NCBI GenBank assembly: GCA_029974225.1
Contig: JARKSP010000002.1
Span: 1 to 37,221 of the forward strand
DNA length: 37,221 bases
Reading direction: 5' to 3'
Origin: Erysipelotrichaceae bacterium
Lineage (GTDB): Bacteria; Bacillota_I; Bacilli_A; Erysipelotrichales; Erysipelotrichaceae
Part shown: positions 16,039-36,531 of the stretch, in pieces
How positions within the stretch are numbered: the stretch's first letter is position 1
How the letters are laid out: each line of letters starts with the position of its first letter
Translations under genes and position numbers: made by a program
The notes under the pieces: model-generated
Databases searched by the model: none
What the model was told of the DNA's origin: nothing
Seen by the model: only the letters and a program-made list of their open reading frames with translations

Positions 16039-17934
16039 TTAGAACAGTTTTTTCTTTTTAACGTAGACTATGACTCCAAAAACACCAGCAGCACTAATCA
16101 GCATGACTATTACCCACATCGTAATATTGATGTTGTCTCCAGTTGGCGGAACAGCATCCTTAGTGTACACAGCAGTAATGGTGGTATCCGCTGTGATGTT
16201 GGTACCGTCATGATCCCAGGCTCCGGTGTAGCCGCTCTTTGGCGGAACAGCCGGAGGATCTGCGACATCTTCGCCATTTTGAACTCCGATCACTGCCACC
16301 GTGGCTCCATCTGCCACATAGGTTACGTCAAAGACCTCTATTGAATAGTCGATATAGATCATGTGATCGACGTCTGGCGGAGTCACTCCGTATCCCTCAT
16401 TGTTGAGCTGCTGCTTGTATTGCTCTCTTACGGCAATCAGAGGAGTATCTGCCGGGTCAATGCTGACAGTTTTAGCGGTTCCTTCAAGCAGCAGTTCGGT
16501 AGCTAAATACACATGGACATTATTAAAGCCTGTAGCTACACAGACAATCGCCTGTGGCTGCTTGCCTTCCTGAGCCTTTGCTGTAATTGAGCCGTCAAAA
16601 ACTCCAACCGAAACATCATCAGCATGAATATCAATGGTTCCGTAACCAGCTGGATCGACATATGAACGATTATTATCACCAGTCAATTCACTGTTTTTAA
16701 CTTCTACCTGGGCTCCTTCACCCCATATAGTAAGTGCAATGACACCTGAAAGACTACTTTTTTCTATGCTGACAGTTGCTCCTGAAGCTGTTGCATCTAC
16801 ACTAACTGCAAGACCATTTTCAACAGAGACATTGACATTATCAAGTTTCAGGGTAGCAGGATTATTCTTAATGCTGATTCCAAACCCGCCAGGATTTCCG
16901 ACAATTTTGAAATTTTTAATAGTGACTTCATCGTTAGCATCAACGACAATTGCAGACCCGTATGATGAAGTCAGGGTGTATCCGTTACCGTCAATTGTCA
17001 CTTGGTCATTAATAATGACCGGACTGTTTATATCGATGTCTCGCAGCACTCCTACAAACCAGTCCGTGCCGGCAACAGCGTCAACGGCATCCTGAAGCGA
17101 ATAGTGATAGTTGTAGGTGGATGCATTTTTAGCTGCCACCGCAACAGGATAGACGATATGCCCCTCAACATAAACAGAAGGGTCAATATTCACCACGCCT
17201 GTTACCGATGCGTTTATCACCGCGTTAGATAACGTTGAATCTTCCTTATAGGCAATGATGTTGCTGTCTCCCGTGATGTTTACAACGGTGCCGTTTGTAG
17301 TATAGTAATTGTCAAAGGCATTAAGAATTATCGCGGCAAAGTCCTCGGTAGCAGAATCATCCCGGCTTCTAATGGTTGAATCATGAATATCTATGTTCAT
17401 ATGTTCGCCGAATATATACATCGCATAGTGACCTTCCAGATGGCTGCCGGTAATGCTGACATTGGCATAGCTTGTTCCTGCGTTCATAAGCAGGGCCATG
17501 TCAGGAAAATCTCCACCGCCGCCTGAGACCATCACACTTTCCAGAGTCAGGTCACCGCTATCACAGGCAAAAATACCGGCTTCCGCATCCTCGGCATAAA
17601 TATCCAGATTTCTAATGGTCACATCCTGTTTCGACTGAATATAGAGCGCAAATTTGTTCGGACCGCTGCCGAGATAGTTGATGATATAACCGTTACCATC
17701 AAGTGTGAGATTCTGGTTTACTATCCCTATATATTCATCTGCAGGTACGGTGATGTCCGACAGAAGCGTAACCGTGTCACCGGCCGGATCGGCGGCATTG
17801 ATGGCCTCCTGCAGCGAGTCATATTCAGCGCCTGAAGACTCCACTCTTGCTACGGCTGCCGCTTTTATCGTAGTCGGAAAGCAGCAGATCAGCACTGCAA
17901 AGAATACCAGAATTTTCAAAATTAATTTCTTCAC
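16039..17934 (-). CDS. Secreted beta-helix surface protein with sortase-like PPTGD anchor
   Basis: 631 residues. A signal peptide (1-26, ending TIKAAA) is followed by two related parallel beta-helix modules. Each opens with a 'LQEAINAA...GDTVTLL' type segment and a 'LTLDGNGY' strand: YDSLQEAINAADPAGDTV near 39 and HYSLQDAVDAVAG near 275, with TIDGNGYTL near 310. After about residue 530 comes a small FDVTYVADG...GYTGAWDHDG...TITAVYT domain of the InlB B-repeat/Flg_new style. The tail is PPTGD (596-600), a membrane segment and KKKK, a variant of LPXTG. Start is GTG at 17934 with AAGGA 5 bases upstream; an ATG overlapping it is out of frame and hits a stop at once. Likely a cell-wall adhesin or glycan-binding protein; no pectate-lyase catalytic residues are claimed. 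Paralogous to the next gene upstream (18420-20285). Confidence 0.88.
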   Translation of the reverse strand: MKKLILKILVFFAVLICCFPTTIKAAAVARVESSGAEYDSLQEAINAADPAGDTVTLLSDITVPADEYIGIVNQNLTLDGNGYIINYLGSGPNKFALYIQSKQDVTIRNLDIYAEDAEAGIFACDSGDLTLESVMVSGGGGDFPDMALLMNAGTSYANVSITGSHLEGHYAMYIFGEHMNIDIHDSTIRSRDDSATEDFAAIILNAFDNYYTTNGTVVNITGDSNIIAYKEDSTLSNAVINASVTGVVNIDPSVYVEGHIVYPVAVAAKNASTYNYHYSLQDAVDAVAGTDWFVGVLRDIDINSPVIINDQVTIDGNGYTLTSSYGSAIVVDANDEVTIKNFKIVGNPGGFGISIKNNPATLKLDNVNVSVENGLAVSVDATASGATVSIEKSSLSGVIALTIWGEGAQVEVKNSELTGDNNRSYVDPAGYGTIDIHADDVSVGVFDGSITAKAQEGKQPQAIVCVATGFNNVHVYLATELLLEGTAKTVSIDPADTPLIAVREQYKQQLNNEGYGVTPPDVDHMIYIDYSIEVFDVTYVADGATVAVIGVQNGEDVADPPAVPPKSGYTGAWDHDGTNITADTTITAVYTKDAVPPTGDNINITMWVIVMLISAAGVFGVIVYVKKKKLF

Positions 17935-18419: not shown

Positions 18420-20285
18420 TTATTTTCTTTTTTTTCTGTAAATAACAGCTGCGGCAATTGCTAAAGAACCCAGCAGTGCAAATATCACCAGTTGAGCTAT
18501 TCTGCTGTCAATTATTTTAAAAGGCGCTCTAGTATAGACAGCGGTAATGGTAGTATCTGCGGAAATATTTCTGCCATCATGGCTCCATTCTCCAACATAG
18601 CCTTTCTTTTCCGGAACAGCAGGTACATCCATAACATTTTCACCATCCTGAACTTTAATTACAGTAACAACATTTTCATCAGCCACATATGTCACATCAA
18701 AGACTTCCTTGGTATAATCTACCGCAATCATGTCGTCCTCATCTGGTGGTGTGGTCGCAAAACCTTCATTGTTAAGCTGCCTCTTATACTCTTTGCGCAC
18801 TTCAAGCAGACATTGACTATCAAATAGTAAACCAAGAATCCTGGCTTTTCCTTCAATAATCAATTCACTTTTCAAATACACCTGTGGGTCAGCAAAAGCT
18901 GCTGACTGGACCAGAACAATATTCTGATCTGAATTACCTTCATGAGATATGGCGGTAATTGACCCGCCGAAGACCTCAACAGTAACATCATTGGCGACAA
19001 TTGTGATAGTACCGCATTCATTACCGGGATTGTATGGTATATTGTTGATGCCTATTAATGTGGAATCATGAACTTCAGCGTAAGCTTTTCCGCCGCAGAC
19101 CGATAAAGCGATTATACCTGATAGATTACAACAATTTATATACGCTTTCGCTGCCTCAGCCAGAGGGGTGATATTAACCGCTGTACCATCTGGAATTGAG
19201 ATATTAACTTCGTCGAGTCTTAAAGCAGCTGTTTCATTGATAATATAAATTCCTACGATAGTGCCACCAATACAGGAAATTTTAAAATCTCTTATGCAAA
19301 CCTCAGCAACAGTATCAATAATTATTGTATAGTAAGTTTGTGAATATAATGATAACCCATTGCCATTAATTTCAATCTCACCATTGATGTTAGTGGCATA
19401 ATCAAGAGTCATGCTGCGGACAACTTCTACTGGCTGATTATTGGCGATTCCATAATCAATTGCTTCCTGAAGCTTATAGAATAAGAATAATTTCGGTCCA
19501 TCTTCGACAAAAGCCACAATCTCTTTAATTGTGCCGACAACCTCTGTCTGCTCATCAAGATTGACTTCAGCACTCAGGGTTCCGTTCAAGATTGCTACAG
19601 ATGGAATACCATCTTCATCTTTAGCAATTATCTTGCTTTTGGTAACATTTATGACCGTTTCCTCTGCTGAATATACATCACCTCTGTTGAGAACAATCGC
19701 CGCATAGTCTTCAGCATCACTGTAATCAGCACTGTAGATTTTGGTGTCGTTGATATTTATTGTCATATCCTGACCCCAGACATTTATCCCATAGTTACCG
19801 GTCAGATCGCAGTTATTGATATTAATAAAAGCCTTGCTGGAATCCAGCGTCAGATACAGTGCATAGTGTGGGACATCTGATTCAAAACCACGAACAATAA
19901 CATTGTCAAGAGTTAAGGTGCCGCCATCTTCATAGCTGATACCTCTATCAGACAATTTTGCCACAATCCTCATATTCTTAAGCGTAACATTACGTTTGCT
20001 TCCGTCTGAATATGCGATGACCAAGGCTGCATATTCCCCGAAGTAGTAAATCTCGCAGTTATTTCCCTCAATGATGATGGATTTGTCAATTGTAATAGGC
20101 GCAGTGGTGTTGCTGTCCTGAAGCAGTGTTACGGTATCACCGTTTTTAGCCGCATTAACCGCCTCCTGAACGGTCGCATATTCAACACCGTTGACCTTGG
20201 CTACGCCGGCTGCCCGTACCGGAACAGTAAGGCAGCCCAGCAATACTGCCAGACATACCACAATGCTCAAAATGAATTTCCTCAT
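18420..20285 (-). CDS. Secreted beta-helix surface protein with C-terminal membrane anchor
   Basis: 621 residues from ATG 20285, chosen because GGAGG lies 7 bases upstream and a good signal peptide (MRKFILSIVVCLAVLLG...PVRAAG) begins there; the frame stays open 42 codons further upstream without any start signal. The layout copies the neighbour at 16039-17934: two modules opening YATVQEAVNAAKNGDTVTLL and FYKLQEAIDYGIANN, then a FDVTYVADE...GYVGEWSHDG...TITAVYT domain. The tail differs: it has a transmembrane helix and RKKRK but no LPXTG-like motif, so it should stay in the membrane rather than be linked to the wall. Tandem duplication followed by divergence is the simplest history. The function is unknown; surface adhesion or glycan binding is a guess. 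Confidence 0.87.
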   Translation of the reverse strand: MRKFILSIVVCLAVLLGCLTVPVRAAGVAKVNGVEYATVQEAVNAAKNGDTVTLLQDSNTTAPITIDKSIIIEGNNCEIYYFGEYAALVIAYSDGSKRNVTLKNMRIVAKLSDRGISYEDGGTLTLDNVIVRGFESDVPHYALYLTLDSSKAFININNCDLTGNYGINVWGQDMTININDTKIYSADYSDAEDYAAIVLNRGDVYSAEETVINVTKSKIIAKDEDGIPSVAILNGTLSAEVNLDEQTEVVGTIKEIVAFVEDGPKLFLFYKLQEAIDYGIANNQPVEVVRSMTLDYATNINGEIEINGNGLSLYSQTYYTIIIDTVAEVCIRDFKISCIGGTIVGIYIINETAALRLDEVNISIPDGTAVNITPLAEAAKAYINCCNLSGIIALSVCGGKAYAEVHDSTLIGINNIPYNPGNECGTITIVANDVTVEVFGGSITAISHEGNSDQNIVLVQSAAFADPQVYLKSELIIEGKARILGLLFDSQCLLEVRKEYKRQLNNEGFATTPPDEDDMIAVDYTKEVFDVTYVADENVVTVIKVQDGENVMDVPAVPEKKGYVGEWSHDGRNISADTTITAVYTRAPFKIIDSRIAQLVIFALLGSLAIAAAVIYRKKRK

Positions 20286-20511
20286 ATTATTTTCCTCCAT
20301 GAACCAGTGTTCATATTTTATTAAACAAACATATACCAGAACTCTTTCGATTCTAACAGCCATTATAGCTATACTGATCTGAAAAGAAATGTTAACAATC
20401 AGCTTTCGCATAACTCTGACAATAGAAAGTAAAAATATCGGGCTTTTACAAACATTTTAAGAACTTGAATTTTTTTAATTATTATATTAATCTAATGTCT
20501 GTGCTATAGAA

Positions 20512-25538: not shown

Positions 25539-26063
25539 TTATTCACCAATAATTACAACTCTACATCTTCTTTCTCGGGAGTGAGTTCGATCAAAATCAA
25601 CAAAATAGATATAACCTGTTTTACTGACACCCAGTTTCCCCTGGTCCAATTCAAAGGTGGCACTATTACCTAATATCGTTGCTTTCAGGTGGGCATCACA
25701 ATTAAACAGTTCTTCTCTGGTTCCTGACGGCAAATACTTTCGATAGTCAGGCCAGGCTTCAACATCTTCAAAATGCAGTGTTCCCGGATAGAAGTATTGC
25801 CCCCATCTATTCTGATCGGGAATAATTTTCTCAAGCACATTATCCAAATCCTGCTGCAGAAATTCTTTCCCGTCCGGCATAACATCATGACAGTGTTCCT
25901 CAAAAAACACTGCACATGTGGTATGCGGTGATATAACACAGACAATTCCGTTTTGTATGCTGCTTCTGGTAATGACGGCTCTTACCTCTTCAGTAATATC
26001 AAAGTAAGTTGGACTGCCACCTTTACTTATTAATCCGGTGATTGTCTCTTTATAGACAGCCAT
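25539..26063 (-). CDS. YjbQ/UPF0047 family protein
   Basis: 174 residues from ATG 26063, chosen because GGGGGAAAG lies just upstream and the family homology starts there; the longer open frame to 26462 runs through the neighbour in another frame. Family marks are SPHTTCAVFFEEHCHD (45-60, with H47 and H57 as likely metal or phosphate ligands), HLKATILGNS, and GKLGVSKTGYIYFVDFD near the end. At 174 residues it is longer than the usual 130-140 because of a central insert around GRNRWGQYF-like sequence (residues 70-110). E. coli YjbQ has a weak thiamine phosphate synthase activity; the true function is unsettled. It starts one base after the neighbour's stop, so they form a pair. Confidence 0.87.
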   Translation of the reverse strand: MAVYKETITGLISKGGSPTYFDITEEVRAVITRSSIQNGIVCVISPHTTCAVFFEEHCHDVMPDGKEFLQQDLDNVLEKIIPDQNRWGQYFYPGTLHFEDVEAWPDYRKYLPSGTREELFNCDAHLKATILGNSATFELDQGKLGVSKTGYIYFVDFDRTHSRERRCRVVIIGE

Positions 26064-26064
26064 T

Positions 26065-26598
26065 CTACTTTCCCCCTTTTTTATCTTTTTCCGTTTTAAA
26101 CTGATTTTGTTTTTTCTCTTCCGATGCTGATTGCCGGGTTCTTCTGTTAGAAGCCTTGATTGTATCTGGATGGGTCTGATATTCCCTATCCAGAAACCAC
26201 TGATATAGTTCTTCAGCATCATTGAAGTAATAACAGAACAGCCAATATCTGCCTTTAAACAGGCTGTTTTTATTTTTATTGATTCTGACATAAACTTTTT
26301 TAGCCTGAGGAAATTCTCGAACTCTAAAGTCTTCAATCTGCTTAAAGTCATAACTATGAACCTGTCCGTAGGCTTTAAAAGATATTCTTTCATCACTAAT
26401 ATGCACCTCTTCAGGGTTTGATAAAGAGAAAAAGGTATTAAATATCTGATAAATACACACAATAGTGATAAACAGATTCAAAATGTTAGGGTTTTCTATA
26501 AAACTATAACTATTATATATTCCCAGCAAAAGACAGAAAATACCCACCAGAGTAACATTAACAAAAAATCGGTCCTTTTTATAAACATACTTTTTCAT
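26065..26598 (-). CDS. Small membrane protein with possible PH-like domain
   Basis: 177 residues from ATG 26598 (GGAGG 8 bases upstream; a TTG at 26613 overlaps that site). Two transmembrane helices (about 15-33 and 39-57) form a hairpin, followed by a soluble domain of about 90 residues (HISDERISFKAYG, then QIEDFRV and WLFCYYFNDAEELYQWF) whose strand pattern resembles bacterial PH-like domains. The tail is highly charged and probably disordered (SASEEKKQNQFK). No function known. It is directly followed by the YjbQ gene. Confidence 0.75.
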   Translation of the reverse strand: MKKYVYKKDRFFVNVTLVGIFCLLLGIYNSYSFIENPNILNLFITIVCIYQIFNTFFSLSNPEEVHISDERISFKAYGQVHSYDFKQIEDFRVREFPQAKKVYVRINKNKNSLFKGRYWLFCYYFNDAEELYQWFLDREYQTHPDTIKASNRRTRQSASEEKKQNQFKTEKDKKGGK

Positions 26599-26622
26599 TA
26601 AATCATCCTCCAAGACAAGTAA

Positions 26623-26640
26623 GGGGCTTATTAAAGCCCC
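26623..26640 (-). terminator. Hairpin after the galactitol-type PTS operon
   Basis: GGGGCTT (26640-26634 on the minus strand) with AAGCCCC (26629-26623), loop TAAT. The following TTACTTGTCTT is a modest T tract; the opposite strand has TTTTCTT, but no gene on that strand ends here. Confidence 0.65.
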
Positions 26641-26658
26641 TTTTCTTAAAACTGTAAA

Positions 26659-28023
26659 TTAAGCTTTTTCTATCTTTCTGATTCTGATTCCGTTATAAAC
26701 CGCAAAAGCGATAGCAATAACAATCAGTATGCCATAGGCTACAGGAGATGGCAAAGTACCAATAGTGAAAAGTAAGGCCGTTAGTGGATTAGCTCCATCA
26801 CAGATAGAAGAGATGGAACTTGCTCCCCCCATATCAAAATTGATAGAAGCCGCAACAGCCGTTGTAGGTGCTGCTAAATAGGTGGCAATATATAAACCGG
26901 CGGTCAGACATATCAGACCGGTTATCAGACTTCTAAAACCATTCCCTTTGCAGATTGGTAAGATTAATACAAACATGAAAGGGAAGACTGCCAGATCTAC
27001 TGCCGGTAAAACAGTATTTCCAGGCAAGATAACAGCTAATAGTAATGCGATTGGAACTAAAATTAAAGCTAAGGTGATTGTCATTGGATGACCAACACCA
27101 ATTGCCGAGTCAAGTCCGATATACATCTGTCCTCTGCCAGAAAAATGTTTGTCCACAAAGGCACTTGCAGCATCAGAAATAGGTATTAAACCTTCCATCA
27201 GCAAAGCTGCCATCTTGGGAATCAAGACCATGGTTGCAGCCAGATTTATTGCTGTTTCCATTGCTTTCTGGAAGTTCTGTCCGGCAGCAATTCCAATACC
27301 CAGGCCCAATACAAATCCAACAATAATAGGTTCGCCAAAGATACCTATTTTATCCTTTAAACCTTCAAGTGAAAAATCAATGTCTCTCAGTCCTGGAATC
27401 TTTTCGATGATCCAGTTGCAGAGTAAAGCAATTGGAGCAAAGGCAGCACTAAAACCGTGAGGCAAGGATACGCCAGGCATTCCTAACGTTGTTTCCAGAG
27501 CCGGAGCAGTAATATCTCCTAAAACTAAAACAATTACTTCATTACAGACAGCAGCAATCATACCTAACAGAACATTTCCGGTTACCGCTGCAACCAGTGA
27601 GCCAGTAAAAGCAAAATGCCAGAAGTTCCAGATATCAATGTTGATTGTCTGAGTGGTTCTAGTCAGAATCATAAAGATATTAACTAACAGACATACCGGA
27701 ATAATAAATACCCCGACTTTGGTAGCAATAGCTATGGCAGCGGCAGCTGGCCAGCCTATATCAATAGTGCCTAATGATAAATTATAATTAGCTGACATTT
27801 GTCCGACAGCAGCAGATAAAAATCCCATCAGACTGGTAGACAGATTTAGCCCGATAATACCGACACCAACTGTTAAACCACCACGGATTGATTTGCCAAT
27901 ACCGGCACCCATAAAAATACCAATTATGATAATCATTATCGGCATCATAACAATTGGTCCGCATTTACTGATAAATTCAAAGAATTCTACAATTTTATCT
28001 AACATTTTTAAAATTAGTTCCAT
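26659..28023 (-). CDS. PTS EIIC, galactitol (GatC) type
   Basis: The membrane channel of a PTS; it moves the sugar in while EIIB phosphorylates it. The 454-residue hydrophobic protein has about 10-12 transmembrane segments. GatC-like parts are MIIIIGIFMGAGIGKSIRGGLTVGVGIIGLNL, GTIDIGWPAAAAIAIATKVG, and VGHPMTITLALILVP, with GGASSISSICDGANPL near the end. The full operon order is EIIA-aldolase-TIM-EIIB-EIIC, and this is the last gene. AGGA lies 10 bases before ATG. The substrate may be galactitol or another polyol or ketose; the enzymes alongside do not fit the full galactitol path. Confidence 0.9.
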   Translation of the reverse strand: MELILKMLDKIVEFFEFISKCGPIVMMPIMIIIIGIFMGAGIGKSIRGGLTVGVGIIGLNLSTSLMGFLSAAVGQMSANYNLSLGTIDIGWPAAAAIAIATKVGVFIIPVCLLVNIFMILTRTTQTINIDIWNFWHFAFTGSLVAAVTGNVLLGMIAAVCNEVIVLVLGDITAPALETTLGMPGVSLPHGFSAAFAPIALLCNWIIEKIPGLRDIDFSLEGLKDKIGIFGEPIIVGFVLGLGIGIAAGQNFQKAMETAINLAATMVLIPKMAALLMEGLIPISDAASAFVDKHFSGRGQMYIGLDSAIGVGHPMTITLALILVPIALLLAVILPGNTVLPAVDLAVFPFMFVLILPICKGNGFRSLITGLICLTAGLYIATYLAAPTTAVAASINFDMGGASSISSICDGANPLTALLFTIGTLPSPVAYGILIVIAIAFAVYNGIRIRKIEKA

Positions 28024-28119
28024 AAGCCTAATTTCCTCCTTTTATTACTTATATTTATATTGTTTTTTAACTAATGCTTTACAAGTCCTAACAAAACTGA
28101 CCGGTAAAACCAGGCAATA

Positions 28120-28407
28120 CTATTCACCAAATAATGCTTTTTCAATCTGATCATAGATTTCTTCAGTTTTTCTATTGATCAGCAGGTTAGTAGCTATTAT
28201 TAATGGACAATGGCAGGTATATGAATTAGCAATCGTACTGACACATAAATCAGCATTGACTGATTTGCTTGGCACCTCTACTGCCTTACATTGAGTGATT
28301 GTGAATTTACCTTTATGCCCTCTTTTAATCAATTCATCCTCAAGCTTTTTGTGAACAACGGTGCTGGTAGCGACACCTGTGCCACAACATAACAAAATCT
28401 TCTTCAT
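28120..28407 (-). CDS. PTS EIIB, galactitol (GatB) type
   Basis: The 95-residue phosphocarrier passes phosphate from EIIA to the sugar bound on EIIC. The phosphorylated cysteine is C8 in the P-loop LLCCGTGVATST. Length and motif fit GatB. A good GGAG-type site precedes ATG (AGGAGAT). EIIC follows after 96 bases without any hairpin of note. Confidence 0.93.
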   Translation of the reverse strand: MKKILLCCGTGVATSTVVHKKLEDELIKRGHKGKFTITQCKAVEVPSKSVNADLCVSTIANSYTCHCPLIIATNLLINRKTEEIYDQIEKALFGE

Positions 28408-28461
28408 GATAAAATCTCCTTCTTTTATATTATAACTTATTTTCTACTGTCATTGGAATAT

Positions 28462-29160
28462 TTACCGTTTATAGAAATCTGTTCTGGCTCTATCTAAGGC
28501 TTCTACCATTTCTCTTAACATTGTCTCTGGACTTTCTGCACAGACGATTCCGCTGGTGGCTCCAGTGCCGTCAGCTCCTGAAGCAATAGCCTTGTAGACA
28601 TCTTTTCCACTGGAGATTCCAGCAGCCTGAAGTATTTTTATCTCTGATGATATTTTTCTGACTGCTTCGTTGGTAGCCTTCATATAATCCATAGCAGCTG
28701 TTTTGCCGGTACCGATTAAACTTTTTAACTCACAGACCAGCACATCAGGCTCCAGCTGAGCAATAGCTTTGGCATCAGCTACATCGTCAGCACAGACAAT
28801 AGTTAAAATATCCAGTTCTTTAGCTCTGGCAATGGTTTCAGTTAATTCTGAAACAGTCTTTGGATTTTCAGCATGGTTTAAAAATGTGGCCTGGACACCG
28901 GCTTCCTTTAGGGCTTCCGGCAGAACATGACCCATGCCTTTTCCCGGTCTTAAAGCTTCCATATTCTGAGCACAGATTACCAGACGGGGAAAATCCTGAG
29001 CCAGTCTGGCCAGGTCCACCAGAGAACCGGTGAAAATAATATCCACATCATATTTTAGCGCCAGCTCTTGAGCAACAGCCGCCAGTTTATAAACTTCTTT
29101 CCCCCATAAATAGCATTTAGGGTTTACTACCAGAAAAGGACTGCGTAATTCTCTTTTCAT
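28462..29160 (-). CDS. Triosephosphate isomerase, archaeal-style short form
   Basis: 232 residues from ATG 29160 (GGGGTGA upstream; an ATG eight codons earlier overlaps the aldolase stop). Catalytic residues are in place: N13 and K15 in VVNPKC, H96 in FLNHAENPK and E144 in VCELKSLIGTGK, with GTGK at 150-153. The short length, the HVLPEALKEAGV segment, the IVCADD strand and the AAGISSGKDV phosphate loop are those of archaeal TIM and its bacterial relatives, not of standard glycolytic TpiA (about 250 residues, NWK). Such TIM paralogs also act on erythrulose phosphates. Next to the aldolase, interconversion of the cleavage products is the likely role. Confidence 0.85.
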   Translation of the reverse strand: MKRELRSPFLVVNPKCYLWGKEVYKLAAVAQELALKYDVDIIFTGSLVDLARLAQDFPRLVICAQNMEALRPGKGMGHVLPEALKEAGVQATFLNHAENPKTVSELTETIARAKELDILTIVCADDVADAKAIAQLEPDVLVCELKSLIGTGKTAAMDYMKATNEAVRKISSEIKILQAAGISSGKDVYKAIASGADGTGATSGIVCAESPETMLREMVEALDRARTDFYKR

Positions 29161-29171
29161 AATTTCACCCC

Positions 29172-30002
29172 TTATTTGACACAATTACAGATGTGATAAT
29201 AATGTCTCAGGACATCTTTAACAGCTTCATCTGATATTTTCAGCAATTCGAACCAGTCTTTTGAATCACTGTTTTTCACTGCTTCTAAGGCAGCAGTGAC
29301 AATATCCGTAAAAACATTGATTTTACTAATACCTTCTCTAGCACATCTGGCCAGGTTTTCATCTCCGCTTGAAGAACCGCCATGTAATACCAGTGGAACA
29401 TCGACAGCATTGCGGATTTGCTGCAGTCTTTCAAAGTTGATTACTGGAGTCCCTTTATACTGACCATGAGCGGTACCAATTGAAATTGCCAGTGAATCGA
29501 CACCGGTCAGCTCAACAAATTTTTTGGCGGTTTCAACTTCAGTATAGATTGAATCATCATCCTCAGTGCCGTAGGTTTCCCCACTTCCGACATGACCGAT
29601 TTCCGCTTCCACTTCTATTCCTCTGGCATGAGCATAATCCACCACTTCTTTAGTTCTTCTGACATTCTCTTCAAAATCACAGTTACTGGCATCAATCATC
29701 ACTGAAGTGAAACCATAAGCAATGGCTTTTTTTATAGTTTCAAATTTGGTACCATGATCTAAATGCAAAGCTACATCAACTTTAGCTGATTCAGCATAGT
29801 ATCGGCCAATCAAAGCTGCTTCTTCCAACGACAGCAGGCAGTAATGTGATTCAGGTGCAAAAGATAAAATTAATGGCAGATTAAATTCTTCCGCAACATG
29901 AACAAAAGCTCGACAGGAATTATTATCATAATAATCAGGAGCAATCAGAGCATAACCTTCACTTTTGGCTCTTTCCAGCATTTCTTTGGATGTAACTAGC
30001 AT
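29172..30002 (-). CDS. Class II ketose-phosphate aldolase
   Basis: A zinc-dependent aldolase of the FbaA/GatY/KbaY group, 276 residues. Visible sites: HLDHG (H80, D82, H83), EAEIGHVGSGE (132-142), SIGTAHGQYKG (H179), VLHGGSSSGDE (H207), and KINVFTDI (227-234), which together form the zinc site and the phosphate pocket. The N-terminus APDYYDNNSC replaces the usual AFNVNN, which may change substrate preference. It cleaves a ketose (bis)phosphate to DHAP plus an aldehyde; whether the substrate is tagatose- or fructose-bisphosphate or a ketose-1-phosphate is open. Ribosome binding site AAAGGGGAT. Downstream TIM starts 11 bases after the stop. Confidence 0.9.
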   Translation of the reverse strand: MLVTSKEMLERAKSEGYALIAPDYYDNNSCRAFVHVAEEFNLPLILSFAPESHYCLLSLEEAALIGRYYAESAKVDVALHLDHGTKFETIKKAIAYGFTSVMIDASNCDFEENVRRTKEVVDYAHARGIEVEAEIGHVGSGETYGTEDDDSIYTEVETAKKFVELTGVDSLAISIGTAHGQYKGTPVINFERLQQIRNAVDVPLVLHGGSSSGDENLARCAREGISKINVFTDIVTAALEAVKNSDSKDWFELLKISDEAVKDVLRHYYHICNCVK

Positions 30003-30014
30003 TTAATCCCCTTT

Positions 30015-30470
30015 CTAGTCCAGTAATTCAGACTCACTAATTATTTTAAAAAACTCATCATAGGTTTCAACTTCCTTTAAAGCATCCATAACTTCATCCA
30101 TCGCAAACAGGTCCATCAGTTTAGGAAGCATTTCCATCTGACTTTTACCTTCTTTTAATGCCAGCATGAAGATTACTGAAACTTCAATAGCCTGATTTAT
30201 ATCGCCCATAAACTGAAAGACGACCGGCTTTTCCAGTGTCATAAAGCCAATCTGATTTTCTTTAACATATTCTGTATCAGTATGCGGTATCGCAACTCCC
30301 ATTTTATTTAGTGGTAATCCTGTAGGAAAAACTGCTTCCCTATCCATAATACCGGTCAGAAAATTTTCCTCCACAACTTCAGCTTTGACAAACTCCTCAG
30401 CCAGCAAGGCTAAAGCTTCATCCCTGTTTTCAACTTTCCGGTTAAATAAAGCAATCTTCTTATCAAACAT
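30015..30470 (-). CDS. PTS EIIA, galactitol/fructose type
   Basis: The 151-residue EIIA accepts phosphate from HPr on H63 (VAIPHTDTEY). The family pattern is MDREAVFPTGLPL, followed by AIPHTD and ending in a helical tail. The Fru/Mtl/Gat-type fold is clear. GGGAGGCGAG lies before the ATG. It is the first gene of the operon, with the aldolase 12 bases downstream. No sugar kinase or dehydrogenase is seen in the operon. Confidence 0.9.
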   Translation of the reverse strand: MFDKKIALFNRKVENRDEALALLAEEFVKAEVVEENFLTGIMDREAVFPTGLPLNKMGVAIPHTDTEYVKENQIGFMTLEKPVVFQFMGDINQAIEVSVIFMLALKEGKSQMEMLPKLMDLFAMDEVMDALKEVETYDEFFKIISESELLD

Positions 30471-30935: not shown

Positions 30936-30964
30936 AAAAGGAAAAGTCGGAATAATTTCCGACT
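30936..30964 (-). terminator. Terminator of the NanE-PTS operon
   Basis: AGTCGGAA (30964-30957) with TTCCGACT (30952-30945), 8 perfect pairs, loop ATTA, then TTTCCTTTT. It lies 32 bases after the EIIC stop. Confidence 0.85.
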
Positions 30965-30995
30965 CATATTAAGGGTTGGTATACTATTACATTAA

Positions 30996-32276
30996 TTAGC
31001 GAAAGAATAAAGATAATAAAGCTTTTACTAGTGCTGGGAAAGCACTATAGTCGAAATCGTTGCTCCATCTTGCAAAATCTGCTATTGTTGTTTGCATTGC
31101 ACCAACAGTAAACATCTGGCCAAAACTTAAAAGTAAACCAGCAACAATACCTGCAGCTAATGCACCTTTCCATCCTCCTTGTGAATTACCAAATACACCA
31201 GAAGGACCACCACCAAAGAAGCAGGTGATAACTGGAGGTGTAAGAGCATAGATTCCAAGAGCACCGAATAGACCAACACATATAAGAACTGTTGCCAAAC
31301 AACTTAAGAAACCAATCATAACTGCTGTAGGAGCATAATTAAATACAATTGGACAGTCAAGTGCTGGGACAGCATTTGGAACAAGCTTTTCAGAAATTCC
31401 TTTAAATGCTTCTGTAATTTCCGCAACCATCATACCTACACCGGTCAATACGATTGTTATACCTACACCAAAAGCCATACCATTTTGAACAGCCCATAAT
31501 AAACCAGCTGTACCACCTGAAACATTTTCTGTAACCCAAGCAGGGCCAGCAACAATAACACTTACAGAATAAAGAATTGTCATAATAATTGCAGTAGAAA
31601 CAGAAATATCTTTCAAAAATGATAACTTTTCCGGAATCTGCAAATCTTCAGACGATGCAGTTTTATTATTCTTAAATAATTTCCCAACAAGTGATGCTAC
31701 AATCATACCAAATGATGTAGTATGTCCATATGCTATTTCATTTGTTCCCGTTACATCGCGCATAAATGGCTGAACAAGTGCTGGAGAAACTGCTGAATAA
31801 ATACCCAAAATAATGCCTCCAATAATCATTACAGCCAACTTACTTGGGTTTGGCACAACTTCAACAAGTATTGCGATATATACTAAAGAAATGTAATAAG
31901 TCTGATGCACAGTCAAATATACATACTTCAATTTAGTAAAGCGCGCAAGAATAAGGTTCACTACAAATCCAATGACCATGATGACTGCAATTGCAGAAGC
32001 CCATTGTTCTGTGAATACATCGGTACCAACGCCTGGAGCAACTGCTTCAATTTTGAAAATGTGGTTCATCAAAGCAGAAATAGGCAAAACTACTCTTGCT
32101 AACAGACTCGTACCCTGTTGAAGAATTAAGTAGCCCAATCCAGTTTTAATAGATCCTGAGAGAACTTCCTGAATTGGCTTTCTTTGAATGATCAGACCAA
32201 CCATAGCAACTAAACTCAGTAATATGAATGGTTGATTGAAGATATAGGTAGTGATAAAACTAACTACTAATTCCAT
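30996..32276 (-). CDS. PTS EIIC, ascorbate (UlaA/SgaT) type
   Basis: A 426-residue polytopic membrane protein of the SgaT/UlaA family, about 10-11 helices. Hallmarks are GTSLLARVVLPISALMNHIF, the EQWASAIAVIM segment, VHQTYYISLVYIA and FGGGPSGVFGNSQGGWKGA. In UlaA systems such proteins carry ascorbate, but many family members carry other sugars. The presence of NanE in the operon suggests an N-acyl amino sugar here. Start ATG after AGGAGGAATAAT; that site overlaps the EIIB stop. Last gene of the operon nanE-SIS-EIIB-EIIC. The base composition is more AT-rich than the genes left of 30000. Confidence 0.9.
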   Translation of the reverse strand: MELVVSFITTYIFNQPFILLSLVAMVGLIIQRKPIQEVLSGSIKTGLGYLILQQGTSLLARVVLPISALMNHIFKIEAVAPGVGTDVFTEQWASAIAVIMVIGFVVNLILARFTKLKYVYLTVHQTYYISLVYIAILVEVVPNPSKLAVMIIGGIILGIYSAVSPALVQPFMRDVTGTNEIAYGHTTSFGMIVASLVGKLFKNNKTASSEDLQIPEKLSFLKDISVSTAIIMTILYSVSVIVAGPAWVTENVSGGTAGLLWAVQNGMAFGVGITIVLTGVGMMVAEITEAFKGISEKLVPNAVPALDCPIVFNYAPTAVMIGFLSCLATVLICVGLFGALGIYALTPPVITCFFGGGPSGVFGNSQGGWKGALAAGIVAGLLLSFGQMFTVGAMQTTIADFARWSNDFDYSAFPALVKALLSLFFR

Positions 32277-32279
32277 TTA

Positions 32280-32594
32280 TTATTCCTCCTTTTTATTTAT
32301 TAATTTTTTCTCAATCAAATAGTTTTTGATTTTTGTTGTGATCTCATCCTGATCTATCAGATTATCAATAATAATGACATCTACGCCAACATTTGCTAAG
32401 TCTTTAGCGAATGTTGGAAAACTAACAATCAAATCACATCTTGCTCCCCTTGCTCGGGAAATACTTGTGTGCTCAACACGCACATTGAAAGGTGCGTTAA
32501 GTACTTTAAAAGCTTTATTAATATTCATTCTTAGTAAAGTACTAGTACCAACCCCTGCACCACATACTGTCATAATTCTTAATTCTTTCAACAT
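32280..32594 (-). CDS. PTS EIIB, ascorbate/lactose type
   Basis: 104 residues; the phosphocysteine is C11 in MTVCGAGVGTSTLL, a typical SgaB/UlaB P-loop. The fold continues with the HTSISRARGA segment and VIIIDN. Ribosome binding site AGGAGAAT before ATG 32594. It lies between the SIS gene (9 bases) and EIIC (3 bases). No free EIIA is present in this operon, which sets it apart from complete UlaABC-type sets. Confidence 0.92.
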   Translation of the reverse strand: MLKELRIMTVCGAGVGTSTLLRMNINKAFKVLNAPFNVRVEHTSISRARGARCDLIVSFPTFAKDLANVGVDVIIIDNLIDQDEITTKIKNYLIEKKLINKKEE

Positions 32595-32603
32595 ATTATT
32601 CTC

Positions 32604-33356
32604 CTAAAGGTTTCTTACTCTCCAATAATACTTGTTAATCAGGTTTGTATTATGGTTTTTGGCTTCTGGATATTCATACTCCAAATGACCATTATACCAA
32701 ACCTCTGGTATAATTCCTTCTTCAAGTAACAACTGACATGTCTGCACTAACAAGGCCTGTAACATAAAAGCAACTGGAATTGTTGAAGTTGCTCCAACCT
32801 TCATAATCATTCCGTCCAGTTGCACTGCAGCATCACCATATAGTGAACAGTTATCAATCACAACATCAGCAATGTCCATTAGTTTCTTGCCACTAGAATG
32901 ATGGGTTGTTAACTTTTCTGCATATGTTGGATTTGTAAAGGCAATTACTGGAACTCCTCTTGCTTTGCACTCAAATGCAACATCATTAGTAACTGCGTTA
33001 TTACCTGAATTAGAAACACAAATCATAACATCTGGTTTTTCAATACGATTATATTGAACAATTAGTTGTCCAATTCCTTCAATTTTTTCAATCTTACTGG
33101 TTTTGGTAATTTCATTAATTCCAGCTACAGCAGATTCAAATATTGCATGAGTATTTGCCATACATGCTGCTCGCCAAAAAACATCTTCTGTTACCAAACT
33201 AGAATGCCCAGAACCAAACAGATTAATTAAGCCACCATTTTTGGTACATTCAGCTAACAGCTTTGCGGCTTCTATCAGTTTTGGTCCCTGTGTATCATAT
33301 GCTTTCTGAACAACACACTGCATTATTTCAAAATACTCTTTCCATGCTTCTTTCAT
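32604..33356 (-). CDS. SIS domain sugar isomerase-like protein, UPF0309 family
   Basis: 250 residues with a SIS fold: phosphosugar loop NLFGSGHSSLVTED near residue 45, CVSNSGNNAVTND near 115, and THHSSGKKLMDIADVVIDN, the UPF0309 hallmark. The C-terminal helix ends HNTNLINKYYWRVRNL. SIS proteins isomerise or bind phosphosugars; UPF0309 proteins have no settled substrate. Beside NanE and a PTS, an amino-sugar phosphate is the natural guess. AGGATG precedes ATG. NanE lies 21 bases upstream. Confidence 0.88.
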   Translation of the reverse strand: MKEAWKEYFEIMQCVVQKAYDTQGPKLIEAAKLLAECTKNGGLINLFGSGHSSLVTEDVFWRAACMANTHAIFESAVAGINEITKTSKIEKIEGIGQLIVQYNRIEKPDVMICVSNSGNNAVTNDVAFECKARGVPVIAFTNPTYAEKLTTHHSSGKKLMDIADVVIDNCSLYGDAAVQLDGMIMKVGATSTIPVAFMLQALLVQTCQLLLEEGIIPEVWYNGHLEYEYPEAKNHNTNLINKYYWRVRNL

Positions 33357-33377
33357 AAATATACATCCTTTCTGTTA

Positions 33378-34100
33378 TTAATCGATTGCTGCATCCAGCA
33401 GAATCGTCTTTACAATTTTCTTCGGCATTGTAATTGATGTTCCTATTACAACAGCTGTGGCTCCTGCTTCAATTGCTTTTTTCATCTTTGCCCCACTATC
33501 ATATCTTCCTTCAGCTATGATATTTTTAACACCTGCAGCCTTTAATTCCCTAATGATTTCATAATCAGGTTCTGGTGTTGGCAATGCTCCAAATTCAATA
33601 GGTTTCTTTGAATAAGGCGTATAACCTGATAATGTAGTTCCTATAAAATCTGCTCCTGCTTGCCAACAATTCACCCCTTCTTCAACAGTTGAAATATCAG
33701 CAATAACAATTACATCAAACTGTTTTTTAATTTGTCGAATAAATTCTTCTGTAGTCAAATTATCGTATCTTTCTCGTTTCGTTCCATCAATAGCTACAGC
33801 ATCAGACCCAAGGTCGACCAATTCTTTTACAGTTTCTAAATCTGGTGTAATACGGAAATCTCCTGCATATCCATCTTTATAAACTTTCTTTAAACCGATC
33901 AAAGGAGTATCTACCGCTTCCATTACTTTTGGAATGTTTAACGAATTGGTACGTATAGCTGATGCCCCACCAACAACACAACTTTTGGCCATTGCTGCCA
34001 TTACTTCTGGATATCCCATCTCTTCATTCAAATCTGGACCTGCATAGCAAGAAACAATCATACCCTTATCAATCTTTCTTAAAAACTCTTCTCTTTTCAT
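33378..34100 (-). CDS. nanE: N-acylglucosamine-6-phosphate 2-epimerase
   Basis: NanE converts N-acetylmannosamine-6-phosphate to N-acetylglucosamine-6-phosphate in sialic acid and ManNAc breakdown. 240 residues from ATG 34100 (AAAGGA 8 bases upstream). Motifs: IGLKKVYKDG with the catalytic lysine (K71 or K72), AIDGTKRER, IADISTVEEG, FIGTTLSGYT, and AEGRYDSG (E197, R199). There is no nanA, nagA or nagB nearby, so the route from GlcNAc-6-P onwards must be elsewhere. It is the first gene of the operon; two long palindromes lie 170-220 bases upstream. Confidence 0.92.
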   Translation of the reverse strand: MKREEFLRKIDKGMIVSCYAGPDLNEEMGYPEVMAAMAKSCVVGGASAIRTNSLNIPKVMEAVDTPLIGLKKVYKDGYAGDFRITPDLETVKELVDLGSDAVAIDGTKRERYDNLTTEEFIRQIKKQFDVIVIADISTVEEGVNCWQAGADFIGTTLSGYTPYSKKPIEFGALPTPEPDYEIIRELKAAGVKNIIAEGRYDSGAKMKKAIEAGATAVVIGTSITMPKKIVKTILLDAAID

Positions 34101-34269
34101 TATTTTTCCTTTCTCTATTAACATCCTTTATAACAATACTAAGTTTTTTATATTATTTGTTCACATTAAATAATATGATACAGCCTGAAGTAATTTTAAA
34201 TGTTTAAAATCATCAGCTATAATAGCAATCATATTTATACATAGGCCATTACTTCTATGCACAAACCAA

Positions 34270-34286
34270 ATATCTTTAAAAGATAT
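34270..34286. promoter_or_regulatory. 17-bp palindrome upstream of nanE
   Basis: ATATCTTT-A-AAAGATAT, 8 perfect pairs about one central base, in the 289-base nanE/regulator gap. Candidate operator. The gap also holds the 34298-34316 palindrome; I could not pick a certain promoter in it. Confidence 0.4.
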
Positions 34287-34297
34287 GATAATTACAA

Positions 34298-34316
34298 TAA
34301 TATTGTGACAATATTA
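34298..34316. promoter_or_regulatory. 19-bp perfect palindrome upstream of nanE, candidate operator
   Basis: TAATATTGT-G-ACAATATTA, 9 perfect pairs about a central base. It contains TTGTCACA on the minus strand, the half-site of MtlR-type PRD activators, but the second half-site is only partly matched (TGTAATTA). It may bind the neighbouring regulator. Confidence 0.5.
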
Positions 34317-34389
34317 CCAAATCAACTAAATTGAACCAATGCGATTTCAAGAGTTTATAAGATTTATAATCCTTCAGTTTCAATCATTA

Positions 34390-36453
34390 TTACCATTTCT
34401 CTCTCTCTAATCTCTCAAATAATTCATTTGAATTATCTATTTTGCATAATTCTTCTATTGTATATTCATTTAGCAAATTCAATAATCCTTGCAATGCTTG
34501 AACATGGCTACTGTAGTCTATTGGAGCTAAGCAGAATATAACCTTTACTGGGTCAAATTGATCATGATTGAATGCAACACCATCTTCAAATCTCGTTAAT
34601 GAAACAGCCATTCTTTTAACTCCATAACCAATATCGCTATGAACCAAAGCTACACCTTTTGAAAAAACAACATATGGCCCCACTTCCTGAATTGATTGTA
34701 TAACTGAATCTAAAAAAATTTCACTAACATCACCGTTTTCTAATAAAGGTACACAAGATATCTTTACCGCTTCTCTCCAAGTTTTTGCTTTGTTCTTAAA
34801 AGAAATATATTTAGGTGTTAGTAGTTGATGCAATTTCAAGCGTTGATGTTTCTCCTGATGACTATACATTAATTCTAATTTTTCTTTGGTTTGATTCTCA
34901 TTCTCAATTAAATCATTCGTTATACATTTTGAATTGATGTAATATGAATCGTCTTTGATAGTTTCTAGCTTGTAATATTTAATAAGCATCTTGTTAATTT
35001 CAATATAATCTTTTTCAGTTAATAGTGGATTTACAACAACATAAGGTATATCATTTTTCCCAATATCGATGCTAGAAATCACAAAATCCAAGTTCATTTT
35101 TTTAAGAATTTGTAAATCAAACTTTGTAACAACTGCTAAAATTGCAATATTGCTGAATCTAGTTAAAATTGACTCTCTTAATAACTGTGCTGCTGCAGCA
35201 CCATTAATGCAGACAATAGCAACTTTTGCAGGTGGAAGCATTCTCATTTTTCTTTCTAGAGAAGAACAGAAATGTAATACCAAATAACCTATTTCATCAT
35301 CTTTAATACCTTTAAGTAGAGGGCTTTGGTTTTCTTTTATTATTTCTTTTAAATCATTGAAACACACAAAATATTTTCTTTTTATCTCTCTTAAATCCGG
35401 GTTAACAATATCAAGTTTATGTTTTACTTTAAATATTGTATGACCCAAATGTGCTTGTAAAGAGAAATATAGTTCCTTGTCATTTGTAAAATCCACATTC
35501 ATTTTATTACTCATTTCCTGAATGATTTCATCAATAACTATTTGCATTTCCATCCAATCAGTTTTCAAATATCTTTCTGGGACAATATACTGAATCCCTT
35601 CAAGAAACATCGTTATCATATAAACTTCTATATTTGGTATTAAAATAGATAATTCTTCTTCAATTTGTGAAGCAATATTTAAAGCTATAGCATAATTACG
35701 GCTTTGAGGTTGCTTATCAAATGTTTTCGGATATTTTTCAATAATATTTCCCATAGATGTTCTTTTCAACATTGTGACTAAATACATAGATAACAGCAAC
35801 TTTGATTCATATGTCAACTCTTTACTTATCTCTGATTCAACAAAATGAATTATATTCAATATATCTTCTAAATATGCGTTACAATATGATCCATGTATGA
35901 TTTTACCAATCGGTAAAATAGATGTGTATTTGTCATTTTTTAATTCGATATTCCTTGTCAGTAAATTAACACATAAATTTCGAATATCTCTTTCGTTTCC
36001 TAAAATCCTATATCCTTTAGATGATTTGGCATCCAATTTTAAATCTAGTGGAATAAGCCTTTCCCTTAGTTTTACTATATCGCTGTCAGTTGTGCGTTTT
36101 GAAATATCCAATTGGTCTGCCAGTGAGGAAGAAGTAACATATTCATCTGTTGCTATCAGCAATAAAGCAATTGCTTCTTGTCTTTCGTCGGAATTCATTT
36201 TATAATCATAAAAATTAAAATTAGAAACTAATTCTTCTAATTGCTTTTTTTGTTGTTTATTCAATAACAGTGAATACGTACCCTTCTTCAAAGCAACTAT
36301 TGGTAAACCATTATCTAATAAAAAGTCATTTATTTTTGTTACTCTATAGCGAATTTGCCTTGCTGTAAGTTTATGCTGTGTAATAAGATCAGTGATTTTC
36401 ACAACATTACCTTTAGCCAACAATTGCAAAAACTTTATTAGATTGCTATCCAT
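34390..36453 (-). CDS. PRD-containing transcriptional regulator with EIIB- and EIIA-like domains
   Basis: 687 residues, MtlR/LicR-type activator. Layout: N-terminal HTH (about 1-60), a second HTH (90-150, SSSLADQLDISKRTTDSD), PRD1 (about 185-295), PRD2 (300-405), EIIB-like (409-500, C415 in VAIVCINGAAAAQ), and a Fru/Mtl-type EIIA-like domain (545-685) with H605 in GVALVHSDIGYGV. PRD2 keeps both histidines (H335 in LQAHLGH, H394 in LVLHF). PRD1 lacks both: the first site reads LLLSMYL and the second VYMITMFL. The gene is upstream of nanE on the same strand, with 289 bases between. AGGAG precedes the ATG. It probably activates the nanE operon, under control of PTS phosphorylation; its EIIA domain may also serve the operon's EIIB, which has no other EIIA. 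Confidence 0.9.
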   Translation of the reverse strand: MDSNLIKFLQLLAKGNVVKITDLITQHKLTARQIRYRVTKINDFLLDNGLPIVALKKGTYSLLLNKQQKKQLEELVSNFNFYDYKMNSDERQEAIALLLIATDEYVTSSSLADQLDISKRTTDSDIVKLRERLIPLDLKLDAKSSKGYRILGNERDIRNLCVNLLTRNIELKNDKYTSILPIGKIIHGSYCNAYLEDILNIIHFVESEISKELTYESKLLLSMYLVTMLKRTSMGNIIEKYPKTFDKQPQSRNYAIALNIASQIEEELSILIPNIEVYMITMFLEGIQYIVPERYLKTDWMEMQIVIDEIIQEMSNKMNVDFTNDKELYFSLQAHLGHTIFKVKHKLDIVNPDLREIKRKYFVCFNDLKEIIKENQSPLLKGIKDDEIGYLVLHFCSSLERKMRMLPPAKVAIVCINGAAAAQLLRESILTRFSNIAILAVVTKFDLQILKKMNLDFVISSIDIGKNDIPYVVVNPLLTEKDYIEINKMLIKYYKLETIKDDSYYINSKCITNDLIENENQTKEKLELMYSHQEKHQRLKLHQLLTPKYISFKNKAKTWREAVKISCVPLLENGDVSEIFLDSVIQSIQEVGPYVVFSKGVALVHSDIGYGVKRMAVSLTRFEDGVAFNHDQFDPVKVIFCLAPIDYSSHVQALQGLLNLLNEYTIEELCKIDNSNELFERLEREKW

Positions 36454-36501
36454 TTTTGCTCTCCTTATTTAGAAAAATTCTTATTCACTAGTAACTTCCT
36501 A

Positions 36502-36531
36502 CTCATATCTTATATATGTCATAATTGTCAA
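36502..36531 (-). promoter_or_regulatory. Promoter of the PRD regulator gene
   Basis: On the minus strand TTGACA (36531-36526), 18-base spacer, TATGAG (36507-36502). The -35 is consensus, the -10 matches 4 of 6. Start near 36495, leader about 40 bases. The remaining 36532-36862 stretch is AT-rich with no gene or repeat that I can name. Confidence 0.6.

Follow-up and report, generated by a model that had tools for sequence, protein, structure and literature searches.

The 37,221-nucleotide stretch analyzed here (the window) comes from a 1.57-Mb, Erysipelotrichia-like genome in 120 contigs. On its minus strand, at 30936-36531, it carries a gene cluster of the phosphotransferase system (PTS) that is probably a copy, decayed in part, of a catabolic PTS operon spread by horizontal transfer, most likely for an N-acyl hexosamine. 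The cluster brings together a NanE-like epimerase, a SIS-domain protein of the UPF0309 family, the ascorbate-type PTS components EIIB and EIIC and an adjoining PRD-type regulator. An earlier annotation made from the letters alone (the sequence-only reading) had singled out this combination, and the cluster is real: all five genes are intact and lie on the minus strand, with the remnant of a sixth between the first two. The features are as follows.

34390..36453, minus strand: PRD-type PTS regulator of 687 amino acids with HTH_11/Mga, two PRD and, at residues 544-683, PTS_EIIA_2 domains; it contains an EIIB-like stretch with Cys415, and its EIIA_2-like domain holds His605 and His650
34140..34389, minus strand: decayed remnant of an ascorbate-type EIIA gene, located by tblastn with the intact EIIA of two relatives (L119 and L110)
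33378..34124, minus strand: NanE-like 2-epimerase of a divergent clade, termed NanE-II here (NCBIfam NF002231, 217 bits, cut-off 189; Pfam NanE, 174 bits)
32604..33356, minus strand: UPF0309/PRK02947 SIS-domain protein of a subfamily termed SIS-A here (NF002805, 232.6 bits; subfamily identity 43-89%)
32280..32594, minus strand: ascorbate-type PTS EIIB (Pfam PTS_IIB, NF007094) with the motif MTVCGAGVGTS, which includes the active cysteine
30996..32276, minus strand: ascorbate-type (SgaT/UlaA-like) EIIC (NF006919, 431.5 bits, cut-off 380)
30944..30965, minus strand: terminator-like hairpin just 3' of EIIC, with a 9-bp stem followed by a T-rich tail

Ribosome-binding-like sequences precede each of the nanE, SIS, EIIB and EIIC genes, and the true start of NanE-II is likely the ATG at 34100, downstream of AGAAAGGA. 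The hairpin likely marks the operon end, an argument that rests mainly on its position, since the region has no more terminator-like hits than the mean of its shuffles. The EIIB motif is kept in 10 of 10 relatives, and EIIC shares 65-94% identity with its counterparts. The operon contains no nanA, nagA or nagB, as the sequence-only reading had stated; elsewhere in the same genome, nagA-family proteins score above the cut-off at three places, and nagB is present too.

Relatives of NanE-II were collected by searches within the order and then by a wider scan of genome contigs. Twelve of them are linked to PTS genes and derive from Lachnospiraceae, Fournierella, Erysipelotrichia, Pelolinea and Thermophilibacter, and the operon spans three phyla: Bacillota, Chloroflexota (Pelolinea) and Actinomycetota (Thermophilibacter). 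The full gene order in these relatives is SIS-B, regulator, EIIA, NanE-II, SIS-A, EIIB, EIIC; it is complete in L121, L122, L124, L125, L126 and L129, with variants or contig-end truncations in L127, L123, L133, L107, L119 and L110. The closest relatives at the locus are Erysipelotrichia metagenome-assembled genomes whose NanE proteins are 89% and 88% identical to that of the window. Because UPF0309 adjoins NanE-II in 18 of 19 relatives and canonical NanE at only 1 of 21 loci (p = 5e-9; p = 2e-6 after related loci were collapsed), the pairing exceeds chance; the canonical control loci were shorter, at ~1.5 kb per side, and cover neighboring genes, not distant ones. SIS-B is absent upstream of the regulator in the window copy, as it also is in the sister species that keep an intact EIIA.

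The gene-neighborhood comparison suggested in the earlier annotation thus recovers, in several phyla, a PTS operon that is conserved and includes NanE-like and UPF0309 enzymes. Its description as a candidate undescribed system is likewise supported: the literature searched on UPF0309, or on NanE together with SIS and ascorbate PTS genes, yielded no paper that describes the operon or gives its sugar, and we could not match this ascorbate-family PTS with its unusual enzyme set to any system described there. The sampled flanks of the relatives contained no substrate clues such as glycoside hydrolases; they carry genes for two-component kinases, ABC transport parts, PTS EI, TetR and methyltransferases. 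Pairs of NanE-II and SIS-A genes also occur without any PTS beside them in four Erysipelotrichaceae genomes. The pair follows RNase J and ftsK genes and precedes M16-peptidase or thyA genes in L130, L132 and L135, with a Bmp-like lipoprotein gene also upstream in L130; in L128, it lies on a short contig, likewise without PTS genes.

A dedicated ascorbate-type EIIA is encoded between the regulator and nanE, or fused to NanE, in 12 of 12 PTS-linked relatives, being separate in nine and joined to the NanE N terminus in three (L119, L110 and L107). Intact EIIAs carry an ALAHARP-like motif, with ALGHARP as a variant in L133. In the window, the EIIAs of the sister species match 34307-34140 (tblastn E values of 1.5e-9 and 9e-11), and more EIIA similarity lies upstream in another frame. 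This remnant has its first 151 nt deleted at the 5' end, four further indels, stops in all three frames and a nucleotide identity of 167/265 (63%); the histidine codon of the active-site LALAHARP motif is gone. Because the relatives keep EIIA and the window holds its remnant, the missing EIIA is, by gene order and sequence, a loss in the window's lineage and not the design of the system. Assembly or sequencing error is ruled out as the cause by the 151-nt deletion, the four indels and the 37% substitution. The earlier statement that the operon has no EIIA is accurate for an intact gene and misses the decayed one between regulator and nanE. A separate EIIA proven to serve this EIIB had been named there as evidence that would overturn the proposal; part of that evidence now exists, from gene order and not from an assay.

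The fused EIIA-NanE genes (L119 2721-3899, L110 277-1455 and L107 8220-9368) encode proteins of 382-392 amino acids, a domain combination of which we found no description. In L119, a GGAGAAAG-like site ahead of the NanE part suggests that NanE may also start on its own.

The sequence-only reading had assigned the EIIA role to the regulator, pointing to an intact phospho-histidine, H605. This residue is the EIIA-domain histidine exactly as claimed. All 15 aligned regulators have it, and 14 of the 15 have Cys415. Because the EIIA-like domain, H605 included, is kept also wherever a relative encodes a dedicated EIIA, the domain is most likely regulatory, although it could still act as donor now. 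As a design, a regulator-borne EIIA is not supported: a regulator-fed PTS would have no dedicated EIIA, whereas all PTS-linked relatives have one besides the regulator domain, and only the window copy lost it by decay.

Several proteins come into question as the present phosphate donor. EIIA_2 occurs in the genome in four free-standing proteins and in two regulators; two of the free-standing EIIAs, on contigs C84 and C90, sit in ascorbate-type PTS clusters, and the free-standing EIIAs, including these two, may feed the orphan EIIB. It seems unlikely that the regulator's EIIA domain is the donor and had made the dedicated EIIA dispensable in the window's lineage. In favor of this role, both histidines (H605 and H650) are preserved, the domain gives hits to mannitol/ascorbate-type IIA families, the same type as EIIB and EIIC, and a related regulator-EIIB-EIIC-SIS-SIS cluster in G145 shows no separate EIIA; the same arrangement was proposed for pneumococcal SP2129-2131, in which the regulator's EIIA domain would feed an ascorbate-type PTS without EIIA (PMC3302838). 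However, H605 is equally kept beside a dedicated EIIA, so its conservation does not point to a donor role, the window domain (VALVHSD, compared to VALVHSE in L119) has not shifted toward the ALAHARP signature of true EIIAs, and other ascorbate-type EIIAs are present in the genome. We give very little credence to the galactitol/fructose-type EIIA just downstream (30470-30015) as the missing partner: it is the next gene on the same strand, 526 bp away, but it is of another type, has its own EIIB, EIIC, aldolase and TIM-like enzyme, is set apart by the terminator-like hairpin and does not lie between regulator and nanE, where the relatives place EIIA.

A further, rather improbable alternative treats the operon as a dying remnant in the window's lineage, in which the EIIA loss ended transport and the other frames have yet to decay. 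Besides the lost EIIA and the absence of SIS-B upstream of the regulator, the window is slightly more diverged than L119 from outgroups in NanE and SIS; compared to L121, for example, 153 versus 159 of 236 positions are identical in NanE and 166 versus 173 of 248 in SIS. EIIC, by contrast, is no faster than in L119 (299 versus 299 of 422 to L121). SIS-B is missing also in the sister species with intact EIIA, and the five genes are stop-free, even with the EIIA remnant down to 63% nucleotide identity. The locus illustrates how the seeming lack of EIIA in a PTS can be due to decay of the gene and not to a regulator acting as donor, and it advises caution with similar clusters. The same genome also encodes another ascorbate-type PTS on contig C90 (L147, G000:C90; 4907-7732), with genes for EIIA, a UPF0309 SIS protein, EIIB and EIIC in a row.

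NanE-II stood out in the searches within the order as a group at 52-90% identity, with ordinary NanE at 45% or less; the scan of genome contigs added members from Lachnospiraceae, Fournierella, Pelolinea and Thermophilibacter. NanE-II members group together in the tree (92/91 with L136, 93/99 without it), and the window protein has Lachnospiraceae, Fournierella and Pelolinea sequences as its neighbors there, a placement suggestive of horizontal spread. No plasmid-borne close relative was present among the best matches listed, all of which were at most 42% identical. NanE family membership is supported by the family model, exceeded above its cut-off, and by the fold, as the predicted structure (mean pLDDT, the predicted local distance difference test score, of 87.5) matches solved NanE structures with a best E value of 1e-19. 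For Staphylococcus aureus NanE, Lys63, Arg40, Asp124 and Glu180 were reported as catalytic, with Tyr149 stacking on the acetamide methyl group, Gln11 located at C1 and Arg208 binding the C3 and C4 hydroxyls (PMC8482478). NanE-II keeps equivalents of the catalytic residues and of Tyr149. Every member, however, has SCYA where ordinary NanE has SCQA (Gln11 to Tyr; Tyr27 in the window protein), and the Arg208 position, mostly Arg in canonical NanE, is Met, Ser, Glu or Asn throughout (Met in the window). The original label nanE is therefore right as to family and catalytic residues, but the enzyme belongs to a divergent clade and is not a canonical NanE. Other settings of NanE-II include a Man-type PTS cluster (L108/L134, G173:C60) with a second NanE, HAD hydrolases, a ceramidase-like protein and a NagB-like deaminase, and, for the distant NanE-II/SIS pair L136, a CUT2-like ABC importer and an FGGY kinase.

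SIS-A proteins are 43-100% identical to the window protein, compared to ~30-40% for the rest of the family searched. The closest solved relatives of the window protein (model pLDDT 86.5), by sequence and by fold, are BH3325 (3cvj, Z 32.0) and SCO4393 (9eol, Z 31.4); the next fold neighbor is MurQ at Z 20.5, and GmhA is also among the fold neighbors. SCO4393 is NagS, the N-acetylglucosamine 6-phosphate (GlcNAc-6P) dehydratase of Streptomyces; confirmed NagS orthologues have identities of 58.7% or more, and the UPF0309 homologues assayed at 26-36% identity to NagS dehydrated GlcNAc-6P negligibly or not at all (PMC12680351). At ~28-30% identity to NagS, the window protein is below the orthologue range. 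It keeps the NagS-essential residues His53, Arg64, Glu94 and Asp179, while the catalytically important Asn228 is replaced by His (His or Ser across SIS-A). Because homologues at such distance are inactive on GlcNAc-6P, the NagS fold does not give the SIS-A reaction, and a NagS-type dehydratase function was not adopted. Neither was an identity as MurQ etherase; MurQ is a fold neighbor (Z 20.5), and no MurQ model was among the NCBIfam matches of the window SIS protein at E<=0.001. The earlier annotation had left the substrate and step of UPF0309 blank; the family now has one known reaction, that of NagS, which is not assignable to SIS-A, and apart from Streptomyces NagS we found no assigned function for UPF0309 proteins. 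These proteins abound in the bacteria concerned and are expanded in several genomes, with up to 14 matches per ~1.3-2.4-Mb genome, often in tandem (G109, G120 and others). With two UPF0309 members linked to a PTS and a re-tuned NanE, the conserved operon offers a tractable setting in which to work out their chemistry.

Regarding the substrate, we consider it most likely that the PTS takes up an N-acyl amino sugar of an unusual kind. NanE-II invariably has the lysine that binds the acetamide carbonyl and the tyrosine stacking on the methyl group of the acetamide; NagS and MurQ both act on 2-acetamido-sugar 6-phosphates; a NagB-like deaminase is encoded beside NanE-II in G173, and nagA and nagB occur elsewhere in the window's genome. 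N-acetylmannosamine (ManNAc) itself is not favored, because the contacts to C1 and C3/C4 of its 6-phosphate are replaced in the whole NanE-II clade, which would rather apply NanE chemistry to a substrate differing around C3/C4. Of the previously suggested N-acyl mannosamine-type sugar, the N-acyl amino sugar class thus stands as most likely on the retained catalytic set and acetamide-stacking Tyr, and ManNAc does not. It is conceivable, though we doubt it, that the operon handles a non-amino sugar, with NanE-II as a 2- or 3-epimerase and the SIS proteins as aldose-ketose isomerases of an ordinary sugar phosphate. Such a role would fit the replacement of Gln11 and Arg208, the many SIS enzymes that are aldose-ketose isomerases (GmhA being among the fold neighbors), the FGGY kinase adjoining the L136 pair and the failure of distant NagS homologues to use GlcNAc-6P, but the invariant Tyr and Lys of the acetamide pocket and the NagB-like deaminase of the G173 cluster speak against it, and for both enzymes the nearest relatives of known function use 2-acetamido sugar 6-phosphates.

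Some of these observations weigh against a catabolic operon for an N-acyl amino sugar and have to be set beside the evidence in its favor. In addition to the inactive NagS homologues, the ABC importer and FGGY kinase beside the L136 pair weaken the amino-sugar assignment; to our knowledge, the FGGY kinase family is not usually used for N-acetylhexosamines. As four Erysipelotrichaceae genomes have the NanE-II/SIS-A pair without a PTS, the pair may act also on an internal metabolite. Finally, the operon genes other than EIIA are stop-free, with ratios of nonsynonymous to synonymous substitution rates of 0.04-0.17 versus L119, but these values average over the whole divergence and say nothing on use after the EIIA loss.

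For the operon as a whole, the sequence itself establishes the gene set, the decay of EIIA, the changed pocket of NanE-II and the folds of both enzymes, while the substrate class, reactions and present phosphate donor are inferred as follows. Phosphate would pass from phosphoenolpyruvate via EI, HPr and EIIA to the EIIB cysteine and on to the sugar, which EIIC would import and which would enter the cell as a 6-phosphate. With its PRD, EIIB-like and EIIA-like domains, the PRD regulator would sense the phosphorylation state, and it would control the operon. The sugar would be an N-acyl hexosamine unlike ManNAc around C3/C4; NanE-II would epimerize C2 of its 6-phosphate by the lysine chemistry of NanE, and the NagS/MurQ-like SIS-A would carry out an enolization with the conserved Glu90, then an isomerization or an elimination at C3, with products passing to the housekeeping nagA and nagB. 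In the window's genome, EIIB might be fed by another EIIA (C84, C90) or by the regulator domain, or the operon might be heading for loss. A more far-reaching version, which we put forward tentatively and do not expect to hold in full, is that the complete operon constitutes an undescribed amino-sugar pathway: a re-tuned NanE, together with a pair of NagS/MurQ-like SIS enzymes, would act on a C3/C4-modified N-acyl hexosamine 6-phosphate in a reaction new to catabolism, and the EIIA-NanE fusion would couple transport to the first catabolic step in some species.

Several further features of the window also lie on the minus strand. A second PTS set at 25539-30470 comprises a galactitol/fructose-type EIIA, a class II aldolase, a TIM-like enzyme (PRK04302) and gat-type EIIB and EIIC, and ends with a small open reading frame followed by one that, by eye, is YjbQ-like. 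Also by eye, a single open frame at 8018-9529 appears to join GNAT-like and nucleoside-hydrolase-like proteins, and 16039-17934 and 18420-20411 encode a pair of large paralogues, each with a signal-like start and a repeat-rich body.

Compared to known systems, NanE-II shares its fold and catalytic residue set with NanE of S. aureus (6vva/7mfs) and Clostridium perfringens (4utw) but is about 28-37% identical to the solved NanE structures, carries the Gln11 to Tyr and Arg208 to Glu/Ser/Met/Asn replacements clade-wide and has an extra loop, SKxPIxFGxxPxPxPDY. SIS-A has in common with NagS the fold (Z 31.4) and the four essential residues, and differs in its overall sequence (about 28-30% identity) and in the Asn228 to His replacement; with MurQ, the N-acetylmuramic acid 6-phosphate etherase, it shares the SIS fold (Z 20.5), with 13-16% identity over the aligned part. 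The operon resembles the L-ascorbate PTS (UlaABC/SgaTBA, Transporter Classification family 4.A.7) in its ascorbate IIC, its EIIB active cysteine and, in the relatives, its ascorbate-type EIIA; of these family hallmarks, the window retains the EIIC and the EIIB cysteine and lacks an intact dedicated EIIA, which is decayed here and NanE-fused in the sister species. In place of ulaD/E/F/G-type enzymes, none of which appeared in the Pfam and NCBIfam annotation of all operon genes, it has NanE-II and UPF0309 enzymes. The pneumococcal SP2129-2131 system (PMC3302838) likewise combines EIIB and EIIC without a separate intact EIIA, beside a regulator with an EIIA domain; its neighbors, however, are transketolase halves and no EIIA was reported, whereas in the window an EIIA existed and then decayed.

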